Origin: Betaproteobacteria bacterium RIFCSPLOWO2_02_FULL_67_26
Lineage (GTDB): Bacteria > Pseudomonadota > Gammaproteobacteria > Burkholderiales > SG8-41
DNA length: 64,000 nt
NCBI GenBank assembly: GCA_001771935.1
Contig: MERD01000121.1
Location: 1 to 64,000, forward strand
Reading direction: 5' to 3'
The translations under genes and the position numbers were made by a program. Position 1 is the stretch's first letter. Each line of letters starts with the position of its first letter. Below, one piece after another: positions 36,378-40,154 of the stretch. The notes beneath the pieces were generated by a model. It did not search any database. It was not told the origin of the DNA and saw only the letters and a list, made by a program, of their open reading frames with translations.

Positions 36378-37118
36378 ATGAAAGCAGGCCACGACATGAT
36401 GAAGCACCGCCGCGGATTTCTTCAAGCCGCCGCGGCGGCGTTCGCCTTGAGCAGTCTGCCGTTCGCCGCGCGCGCCGCGGGCGCCGCGGCGGGGAAGATG
36501 AAGATCGGAATCGTCGGTTCGGGCCGGATCGGCGGGACGCTCGGCCGCATCTGGGCCAACGCCGGGCATACGGTGATGTTCTCCTCGCTCGATCTCGAGC
36601 ACGACAAGGCGCTTGCCGCCAGCGTCGGGGCCAACGCCCGGGCGGGAACGCCGCGCGAAGCGGCCGTTTTCGGCGATGTGCTGCTGGTCGCGGTGCCGTA
36701 CCACGCGCTGCCGCAGGTGGCAAAAGATCTCGGGGCCTTGCTCAAGGGCAAGGTGGTGATCGACACCTGCAACCCTTTTCCCGGACGCGACGGCGAGGTC
36801 GGGATCTGGGCCCAGAAGAAGGGCGCCGGCCTCGCCTCGGCGGAGCTGCTGCCCGGGGCGCGCATCGTCCGCGCCTTCAATGCGATCGGATACTCCAGGC
36901 TGCCGGAGGCGGCGCAGAGCCCGGGACGTACCGGCATGCCGATGGCGGGCGACGACGCGAAGGCCAACGCGATCGCCTCGATACTGGTGCGCGACGTCGG
37001 CTACGAGCCGGTGGTGATCGGGCCGCTCGCCATGGGCAAGCACCTGGTCCCGGGAACAACGCTCTCCGGCGAGCGCTCGCCGGTGGAAATCCGGAAGATC
37101 GCGGCGACGCTCAAGTGA
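36378..37118 (+). CDS. NADPH-dependent F420 reductase-like NAD(P)-binding protein with predicted Tat signal
   Basis: MKAGHDMMKHRRGFLQAAAAAFALSSLPFAARA then KMKIGIVGSGRIGGTLGRIWANAGHTVMFSSLD (Rossmann GxGxxG). Confidence 0.85.
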   Translation: MKAGHDMMKHRRGFLQAAAAAFALSSLPFAARAAGAAAGKMKIGIVGSGRIGGTLGRIWANAGHTVMFSSLDLEHDKALAASVGANARAGTPREAAVFGDVLLVAVPYHALPQVAKDLGALLKGKVVIDTCNPFPGRDGEVGIWAQKKGAGLASAELLPGARIVRAFNAIGYSRLPEAAQSPGRTGMPMAGDDAKANAIASILVRDVGYEPVVIGPLAMGKHLVPGTTLSGERSPVEIRKIAATLK

Positions 37119-37163: not shown

Positions 37164-37790
37164 ATGGCTCGATTGCCCTTCATTCAAGATGACGCTCCTT
37201 CGGAAGTCGTGCGCGCCGCGTTCGACGCGGCGAACCGGTTCAACGGGCGGGTCGCCAATTCGATGCGGGTATTCGCCCACTCTGAAGGCATCCTGAGGTT
37301 CCTGCTGCCGCTCCAGGCCGTGCTGCAGAAGGACGGCCTCGGCTGCAAGCTCGACGCGAAGACCCGCGCGCTGGCGATGATCAAGGTCTCCGCCCTCAAC
37401 GAGTGCCGGTACTGAATCAAGCACAATCGCCTGGTCGGGCGATCGGCAGGCTGGACCGAGGAGCAGCTCGATACCCTCAGCGGCGACGGCTACATGGAAA
37501 GCCCGCTCTTCGGCAGCCGCGAGAAGGCGGTCATCCGCTGGGCCGAGCTCGTCAACTGGAACAAGGCGCGCTACGACGACGACGCCTTCGCGCAGCTTGC
37601 GAAGCACTTCGACCCCACCGAAATTGTCGAGCTGACGACCGTCGCCGCGTTCCGCGGCCTGATGAACCGCTTCATGGACTCGCTGCACATCGAGCTCGAA
37701 GGCCCCGAACTCCAGGCCCGGGGCGGCCGCGCCGCCGCGAGCCGGGAAGACCTGCATGCTTACGTCGAGAAGCTGGCGAAGCTGGTGTAG
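37164..37790 (+). CDS. Carboxymuconolactone decarboxylase/AhpD-like protein, candidate selenoprotein with in-frame TGA (Sec) at 37413-37415
   Basis: Frames of 37164..37415 and 37494..37790 are identical and open between them apart from one TGA: ...ALAMIKVSALNECRY[U]IKHNRLVGRSAGWTEEQLDTLSGDGYMESPLFGSREKAVIRWAELVN...; TGA replaces the second Cys of the AhpD-type CxxC(xxH). Confidence 0.85.
37413..37443 (+). promoter_or_regulatory. Putative bacterial SECIS element (UGA plus downstream stem-loop)
   Basis: TGA 37413-37415; 16 nt; perfect stem AUCGCC (37426-37431)/GGCGAU (37438-37443), loop UGGUCG (37432-37437) with GGUC, comparable to the E. coli fdhF SECIS loop AGGUCU. Confidence 0.8.
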
Positions 37791-37837
37791 CGCACCGGCA
37801 TAGTTACGCCGAGTGGCCCGATCCTTGGGAGGGGAAC

Positions 37838-38836
37838 ATGAGCGCAATCGTTGCACGCAGCCTTAAGCCCGTCGACGCGCTGGAAGTGAGCGTCCTGATC
37901 GACAACGTCGTCGACCCGCTGTCCACCTTGCCGAAGGGCGTCACCAGCGAGCAGGCGGTGCTCCAGGCCAGGGGAATCATGGTCTCGTCGGGTCACGTGC
38001 GCTGCTGCGCGAATCACGGCCTGTCGCTCGTCATTACCGCGCGCATCGGCAGCGACATCCGGGTCCTGCTATTCGACGCCGGGCCGGAGGCCTATACGCT
38101 TGCACGCAACGGTGACCGGCTGCGGACGCCTTTTGGCGAGGTCGGTGCAATTTTCCTCTCGCATGGGCACTGGGATCACGGCGGCGGCTTGCCGGAGGCG
38201 CTGCGTCTTGTCACTTCCGCGAACGGCGGCAAGCCCGTGCCCTTTCACGTCAACGAGGGCATGTTCGTCACCCGCGGGATGCGACGGCCGAACGGCGTCG
38301 TCGTGCCGGCCGAAGTCGTGATGAACCCCGTTGATCTCGAGAGGCGGGGCGCCGCGATCGTCAATTCCCCGGACGCGCGGGCCATCATGGACCAGCTGTT
38401 CTACGTAAGCGGCCAGATTCCGAGGGTCACGCCCTACGAGCGTGGATTGCCGCCGCACGTGAAGCTCGCGCAGGACGGCGTCACCTGGGAGCCCGACCCG
38501 TTGATCCTGGACGAGCGCTATGTCGCGGTGCACGTCAAGGGCAAGGGCGCCGTCGTATTCACGGCATGCTCGCACGCGGGCGTGATCAACGTGCTCACGG
38601 ACGCGCGCAACGTCCTCGGCGACGTGCCGCTCTACGCCGTGATGGGCGGCTTCCATCTCTCGGGGGCCGAAGTCGAGGCGATCATCCCCCAGACGATTCG
38701 GGACTTCGGCGATTTCAAACTGAAGCGGATCGTCCCCTGCCACTGCACCGGCTGGCGCGCGGTGCACGCGCTGGCGCAGGTCTACAACGAGGACGTCCTG
38801 GTGCCGGCGGCGGTTGGAAGGCAGTTCGTTTTTTGA
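37838..38836 (+). CDS. MBL-fold metallo-hydrolase
   Basis: Start MSAIVARSLKPVDALEVSVLIDNVVD; IFLSHGHWDHGGGLPEAL; FTACSHAGVINVLTDAR; VPCHCTGWRAVHAL. Confidence 0.88.
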   Translation: MSAIVARSLKPVDALEVSVLIDNVVDPLSTLPKGVTSEQAVLQARGIMVSSGHVRCCANHGLSLVITARIGSDIRVLLFDAGPEAYTLARNGDRLRTPFGEVGAIFLSHGHWDHGGGLPEALRLVTSANGGKPVPFHVNEGMFVTRGMRRPNGVVVPAEVVMNPVDLERRGAAIVNSPDARAIMDQLFYVSGQIPRVTPYERGLPPHVKLAQDGVTWEPDPLILDERYVAVHVKGKGAVVFTACSHAGVINVLTDARNVLGDVPLYAVMGGFHLSGAEVEAIIPQTIRDFGDFKLKRIVPCHCTGWRAVHALAQVYNEDVLVPAAVGRQFVF

Positions 38837-38968: not shown

Positions 38969-39126
38969 CCCCGGATCAGGCGCGGGTTCTGGAGTATGCG
39001 TTCGTAGAGCGTGTCCAACTCCAGCACGAACTCCGCTCCGAGTCCGCCACGCTTGTCTTCGTACCTGAGCGCCGCCTCCCGAACATCCGCCTCTGCTATG
39101 GGGCGGACGAGTAATTCGACCGTCAC
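38950..39126 (-). pseudogene. ParE/RelE-like toxin, C-terminally truncated
   Basis: GTG start overlapping antitoxin stop: (V)TVELLVRPIAEADVREAALRYEDKRGGLGAEFVLELDTLYERILQNPRLIRGSSLES*; only 58 aa, last residues encoded by the hairpin repeat. Confidence 0.65.
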
Positions 39127-39380
39127 GAGCGGGAAGTGCGCCTGCGGCCGGCGAGTTCACTGAGCAACTGGTCCCGGACCTCTTGCCATGGCCGCCCGGC
39201 TTTCGGGTCGCTGCGATACTCCGCCAGCCGTTCGCTCAGCACTTGCCGGTGCCAATCGGGCACGCCGACCTTCTCCGGCACCGCAGCGATGCGGTCCCAA
39301 AGCGCCTCGACGTAATTGACCTTCTCCTCGAACGGTAATTCGTCGAAGCCAGGTGGCGGAAGCGGTAATGTGTCAGCCAT
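39123..39380 (-). CDS. Addiction module antitoxin (putative addiction module component family)
   Basis: FDELPFEEKVNYVEALWDRIAAVPEKVGVPDWHRQVLSERLAEYRSDPKAGRPWQEVRDQL typical of the family. Confidence 0.8.
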   Translation of the reverse strand: MADTLPLPPPGFDELPFEEKVNYVEALWDRIAAVPEKVGVPDWHRQVLSERLAEYRSDPKAGRPWQEVRDQLLSELAGRRRTSRS

Positions 39381-39527: not shown

Positions 39528-40154
39528 CTACCTGGCCTTCCGCTCGAAGTACTGGAGGTCGACGAACAAGGCCGCGGCAAGGACGAGCAATCGCTCCTCG
39601 GCGCTCAACCCCGGGTCCTGATACTCCACGCGGAAGCGGTCCTTGTCGGTGAAACCCTCGGCGAGCAGCCCGGCCCACTTCTTGGCCACGACCGCCACGG
39701 GCTTGCTGCCCTTCATGAATGGGAAGGTCCAGATCTTCCACAACGGCGAGGAGACGGTCATGCGTGCCGTCCCGGTCGCGTCCTCGACATCGAAGCGCTT
39801 CGACAGCACCGCGAAACGCTGCTGGAGCGCTCCAATGGAACGCCCCTCGGCCGTGGAGACCTCGAGGCGCTGGAAGTACCAGCGGAACGGGTGGTGCGCG
39901 ACGAGGATCGGCTTCCGGCCCAGGTCGAAGAAGTGCAAATCGAAGGTGCGCCAATGACCGAGGAACTGGCGCATCAGGAAACCAGACCATCCCTTCTGCT
40001 GCTCCGCCGCGTAGGCCACCGCGACACCGTCCTCGCTGCTCACCACGTACCGGTTGCGCGTCTCGAAGCCGAAGACTTCCGCGAGCTCATGCTTCTGCTC
40101 GACGAGCAACGCTTGCCGCTTGACGATTTCTTCAGGAAATGAGGTCGGAGTCAT
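39528..40154 (-). CDS. Phospholipid scramblase-related protein
   Basis: ALLVEQKHELAEVFGFETRNRYVVSSEDGVAVAYAAEQQKGWSGFLMRQFLGHWRTFDLHFFDLGRKPILVAHHPFRWYFQRLEV. Confidence 0.8.
   Translation of the reverse strand: MTPTSFPEEIVKRQALLVEQKHELAEVFGFETRNRYVVSSEDGVAVAYAAEQQKGWSGFLMRQFLGHWRTFDLHFFDLGRKPILVAHHPFRWYFQRLEVSTAEGRSIGALQQRFAVLSKRFDVEDATGTARMTVSSPLWKIWTFPFMKGSKPVAVVAKKWAGLLAEGFTDKDRFRVEYQDPGLSAEERLLVLAAALFVDLQYFERKAR

Follow-up and report, generated by a model that had tools for sequence, protein, structure and literature searches.

Positions 37164–37790 of the window, the 64,000-nucleotide stretch of DNA analysed here, very probably form one intact gene encoding a 208-residue selenoenzyme of the AhpD/CMD fold, in which an in-frame UGA would be read as selenocysteine (Sec). 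The reading frame, the position of the UGA, the conservation of this codon and of a hairpin behind it, and the Sec machinery of the genome were all directly observed. A selenoprotein had been proposed in a sequence-only reading of this DNA, and that proposal is strongly supported by the machinery, by the TGA of the orthologues and by a hairpin conserved beyond protein-coding need. Coordinates of the features discussed below are given in Table 1.

Two open reading frames, 37164–37415 (83 aa) and 37494–37790 (98 aa), lie in a common frame whose sole interruption is the TGA at 37413–37415, exactly as the sequence-only reading had described. Translation of this TGA as U produces a 208-aa protein with NECRY-U-IKHN around the codon, giving the motif C81-R-Y-U84-I-K-H87. 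The PF02627 (CMD) match runs across the TGA (residues 60–128, E 2.9e-10, 40.5 bits against a gathering score of 23). This TGA stands where the AhpD/CMD family has the second Cys of its CxxC motif. The ATG at 37494, with which the second open reading frame starts, is not conserved, the orthologues having M, A, L or D at position 111.

Table 1. Features of the candidate selenoprotein gene, its neighbours and its paralogues in the same genome
Feature	Position	Strand	Evidence or remarks
AhpD/CMD-like selenoprotein gene (predicted)	37164..37790	+	208 aa with UGA as Sec (U84); frame, PF02627 across the TGA, orthologues 80–89% over both halves
TGC, Cys81, CxxU partner of Sec84	37404..37406	+	invariant in A3
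In-frame UGA, putative Sec84, second position of C81-x-x-U84	37413..37415	+	all 11 distinct orthologue sequences have TGA here, as do paralogous subfamilies at the same column
Bacterial SECIS-like hairpin AUCGCC-U-GGUC-G-GGCGAU	37426..37443	+	GGUC loop 17 nt past the UGA; synonymous-site conservation, pairing versus slid controls
Stop codon TAG of the selenoprotein gene	37788-37790	+	
F420_oxidored-domain (NADP-dependent) oxidoreductase, upstream	36378..37118	+	PF03807, E 2.3e-17; N-terminal signal-like segment; ordinary TGA stop
MBL-fold-like protein, downstream	37838..38836	+	linkage to the selenoprotein not conserved
CMD paralogue NGCKY-U-TEHN (L020/L025)	G000:C98:17047-17607		hairpin GUGCUU-GGUC-AAGCAC
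CMD paralogues HGCHY-U-MAHN and HGCHY-U-MAHT (L022, L024, L103)	G000:C124:35676-36143 and 37510-37968		hairpins CCGGGG-GGUCG-CUCCGG and CCGGAG-GGUCG-CUCCGG

The orthologue search covered 60 relatives, and named genomes were scanned separately. Orthologues in the 60 relatives were 80–89% identical to the window protein and each contained exactly one TGA, at the codon of the window gene. The scan of named genomes yielded nine sequences of the same type, full or near-full length, together with a further locus (L062, 81%), all with TGA. The source MAGs, SG8_41 and RIFCSP bins among them, are labelled as Betaproteobacteria or Burkholderiales, and some records bear species labels apparently wrong for the gene (Bordetella, Chitinophaga). 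Several orthologues represent one genome under two handles, leaving 11 distinct sequences including that of the window (10 others). Amino-acid identity among the orthologues was 0.855 before the TGA and 0.858 after it. In more distant CxYC homologues the Sec84 column is occupied by TGC or TGT. The residue carried by homologues at this column had been named in advance as a check on the selenoprotein proposal; it is TGA in every orthologue and Cys in distant homologues, with no Trp. A protein search at E 1e-20 across 369 genomes of the class matched the window's own genome only, because close relatives were not sampled in that set; the orthologues were found in the search of relatives.

The hairpin downstream of the UGA consists of AUCGCC (37426–37431), UGGUCG (37432–37437) and GGCGAU (37438–37443), and U37432 can also pair with G37437, leaving GGUC as the loop. 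The three segments are present as first reported, while the distance of 16 nt after the UGA originally assigned to the hairpin fits the loop as then written, the stem itself beginning 10 nt after the UGA. The outermost pair, A37426-U37443, was found in only 2 of the 11 orthologue sequences, leaving UCGCC(U)/(G)GGCGA as the conserved stem. Bacterial SECIS elements are hairpins immediately 3' of the UGA with a G as first or second loop nucleotide and the loop about 16–37 nt away, and the window hairpin agrees with this description, its GGUC loop lying at 17 nt. Loop and spacing are also like those of the E. coli fdhF SECIS, which carries GGUC in an apical loop about 17 nt past the UGA, but the window stem is shorter and uninterrupted and belongs to a gene of another kind.

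The strength of the case for this hairpin is comparative, single-sequence folding energy being uninformative: the 53-nt stretch by itself is unremarkable (z -0.41), and an Rfam search gave no match for the hairpin. To gauge how often this arises by chance, the 1539 TGAs of the window were taken in every frame and on both strands; 11 of them (0.7%) precede a hairpin with a GGTC loop and a stem of 5 bp or more in the same distance range. Synonymous codon identity reaches its gene-wide maximum of 0.85–0.90 at codons +3 to +10 past the UGA, which correspond to the hairpin, compared with 0.52–0.53 over most of the gene. Pairing was 0.87 for the window hairpin versus 0.29–0.43 in slid controls; over the three distance classes, in fixed register, the values were 0.87, 0.97 and 0.98 versus 0.25–0.64. 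Compensatory pairs were observed in the 21-nt class (T-A to A-T and C-G, with both-side changes at pairs 24-29 and 20-33) and in the 19-nt class (C-G to T-A; gccggag..ctccggc versus gctggag..ctccagc). A stem of 5 bp or more closing a loop with G in first or second place was present in 42/42 TGA genes of the main survey, a somewhat generous count since the search takes the best hairpin. The loop of one orthologue, L034/L055, is CGUU, a point against the reading. The more distant homologue L064, with TGC (Cys) at the column of U84, is without such a hairpin, and the GGUC hairpin was absent from the few homologues with Cys at this column, a small sample.

The sel genes on which a selenoprotein reading depends, selA, selB, tRNA-Sec and selD, are all present in the window genome (3.46 Mb, 94% complete). 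The selB gene (398 bits, contig C84) has lost its 5' end at the contig start and selA (535 bits, contig C50) is clipped at a contig end, suggesting a selA-selB pair split by assembly. The tRNA-Sec gene (76 bits, UCA anticodon) lies 1.1 kb beyond selB. Between them is a thioredoxin-reductase-like FAD gene with CADC (L007, G000:C84:1486-4576), possibly an electron donor for selenoenzymes. The selD gene (404 bits; L016, G000:C5:28641-29567, minus strand) is itself interrupted by a single in-frame TGA, which falls in the GGG-U-GC motif as it does in SelD proteins of the Sec type, and probably encodes a Sec-containing SelD (HGGG-U-GCK). Wherever a TGA homologue was matched at E ≤1e-30, the genome also had a selB match, one such selB being partial at a contig end, and shared ancestry limits the weight of this co-occurrence. 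In G373 (88% complete, 390 contigs), whose CxxU gene belongs to a different subfamily, no selB was found, probably reflecting missing data.

These data bear directly on two explanations that dispense with Sec. A pseudogene or sequencing error, in which a Cys codon has recently suffered a nonsense change, would agree with a frame otherwise intact and interrupted by a single TGA, but it is refuted by the same TGA in the other ten distinct orthologues, which come from different genomes; the two halves are moreover equally conserved and the hairpin is frozen at synonymous sites, reducing the probability of this explanation to next to nothing. It is also very improbable that the UGA is a real stop, whether between two separate proteins or as a regulated stop at which read-through would insert Trp or some other residue. 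TGA does serve as an ordinary stop in this genome (37116–37118, for example) and the second half contains an ATG, but this ATG is not conserved, the CMD domain would break inside the active-site helix, homologues have Cys rather than Trp, and both the SECIS-like hairpin and the full Sec machinery are present.

On the selenoprotein reading, SelB loaded with Sec-tRNA(UCA) would bind the hairpin at 37426–37443 through its GGUC loop and Sec would be inserted at UGA 37413–37415, producing the active site C81-x-Y-U84-x-x-H87. An AF2 model with U modelled as C (pLDDT 87.4, pTM 0.83) predicts an all-helical AhpD/CMD fold, for which the best PDB fold matches are the AhpD-like proteins 6k40 (TM 0.75/0.84), 3c1l, 2oyo and 2prr, the debrominase Bmp8 matching less well. 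The catalytic relay consists of Glu118, Cys130, His132, Cys133 and His137 in M. tuberculosis AhpD and of Glu36, Cys48, Tyr50, Cys51 and His55 in PA0269 (PMC3141380). By alignment the window equivalents of the AhpD relay are Ala69, Cys81, Tyr83, Sec84 and Asn88, and position +3 is occupied by His (H87). The five-residue M. tuberculosis relay is therefore incomplete, Glu being replaced by Ala69 and the +4 His by Asn88, and AhpD-type peroxidase chemistry is not simply transferable. Selenols ionise unaided at neutral pH, so an absent relay is consistent with Sec. In the Cys homologues L064 and L091, however, position +4 is likewise Thr or Asn, indicating that relay loss and Sec are not strictly linked.

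The protein is likely to act as a selenol peroxidase or disulfide reductase. In a catalytic cycle that we consider somewhat probable, the U84 selenolate would attack an oxidised substrate (hydroperoxide or disulfide), a Se-S bond would form between U84 and C81, and this bond would then be reduced by a thioredoxin- or lipoamide-type donor. A selenoprotein acting instead as a reductive dehalogenase like Bmp8, whose reductive debromination relies on a pair of Cys residues, is possible, and Bmp8 (6ohi, 6ohj) does appear among the sequence and fold matches; the missing relay Glu and +4 His also speak for such an activity. Non-halogen AhpD-like structures (6k40, 3c1l) nevertheless match better, identity to Bmp8 is only 14–18%, and a halogen-related gene was not consistently adjacent at the compared loci, making dehalogenation an unlikely function.

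The F420-type oxidoreductase adjoins the orthologue in only one relative (under two handles) and no MBL gene stands beside the orthologue among the compared loci; since neighbours are not shared, the pathway is not readable from context. The downstream MBL protein contains a CC motif and was weighed as another selenoprotein candidate; this was rejected, its homologues being without an in-frame TGA. The minus strand of the window also encodes an addiction-module antitoxin-like protein (39123–39380; PF09720) and a Scramblase-domain protein (39528–40154; PF03803, E 3e-37), whose domain is more familiar from eukaryotes.

The window genome contains four CxxU CMD genes in total, the window gene and three with TGA at the same column, the two on contig C124 lying about 1.4 kb apart. 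Relatives contain at least four CxYU subfamilies as well as a GGCTG-U-VMNHG type, and the SG8_41 MAG (G371, LJTT01) has six CxxU CMD genes (loci L035, L094, L117, L124, L141). Several low-identity rows with one TGA were left out of these counts, since in a motif test the TGA did not fall at the CxxU column; the test undercounts, having missed the verified L024, and one extra match (L042) is a chance frame. The window gene belongs to a lineage expansion in which a genome may hold as many as about six genes of this type. It is conceivable, though doubtful, that the expansion of Sec-CMD proteins in this uncultured betaproteobacterial family, with its CxYU subfamilies, serves specialised selenolate chemistry, such as reductive dehalogenation or reduction of environmental oxidants, without the AhpD Glu/His relay.

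Further CMD genes of this general kind were seen. The divergent L084 and L085 (G385, G391) have GGCTG-TGA-VMNHG with the hairpin ACGGAG-CGUUG-CUCCGU 16 nt past the TGA, and score above the TIGR01926 cut-off. In isolate ODZ_NOB7a (L068:4256, JAVEPB010000023.1) a CMD gene has CSH-TGA-YAHN, the motif Tyr being replaced by His, and a GGUC-loop hairpin.

AhpD-like CxxU selenoproteins are an established family, reported since 2005, and the window gene is not a new kind. The statement in the sequence-only reading that AhpD-like and CMD selenoproteins occur in metagenomic surveys proved correct: CxxU proteins of the two types numbered 27 and 4 sequences, respectively, in the Sargasso Sea (PMC1088965), and GOS contained 299 AhpD-like 1 and 70 AhpD-like 2 sequences (PMC2398784). 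Both types also feature in reviews (PMC9312934, PMC13188914). The best curated match is NCBIfam NF053654 (GroundWater_YciW, YciW-related (seleno)protein; residues 1–176), at 66.3 bits against a cut-off of 310, and the three paralogues also fall below this cut-off; for TIGR01926 the score is 47.7 against a curated cut-off of 81.8. On these scores the window gene represents a known kind of selenoprotein, in a subfamily that has yet to be curated. What appears to be new, judged by sequence, is a subfamily that falls below the cut-off of every curated CxxU model tested and lacks two canonical AhpD relay residues.

The window protein shares with AhpD-like selenoproteins (COG2128/YciW, TIGR01926, 'AhpD-like 1' of GOS) the predicted fold, a CxxU motif with Sec second, a SECIS just downstream and a TIGR01926 match, but differs from the AhpD-like 1 family in scoring below the TIGR01926 cut-off, in the replaced relay Glu and +4 His, and in being betaproteobacterial with several paralogues per genome. 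It matches NF053654 over most of its length, yet is not a member of that equivalog. Compared by description rather than alignment, it also resembles the CMD-like selenoprotein ('AhpD-like 2' of GOS; PMC2398784) in CxxU and in a PF02627 match above the gathering score. The closest solved relatives by sequence and fold are the Cys AhpD-like proteins PA0269 (2ijc/2o4d), 6k40 of D. radiodurans and Mlr4105 (3c1l); unlike the window protein, PA0269 has CxxC and keeps relay residues Glu36 and His55 (PMC3141380).

Because gene callers split or discard such a gene, which also scores below the cut-offs of the curated CxxU models tested, genome annotation probably overlooks the subfamily. Several AhpD-like selenoproteins can, on this evidence, coexist in one betaproteobacterium, and the coexisting paralogues would be useful for model building and for choosing an enzyme in which to study the contribution of Sec to the AhpD fold.
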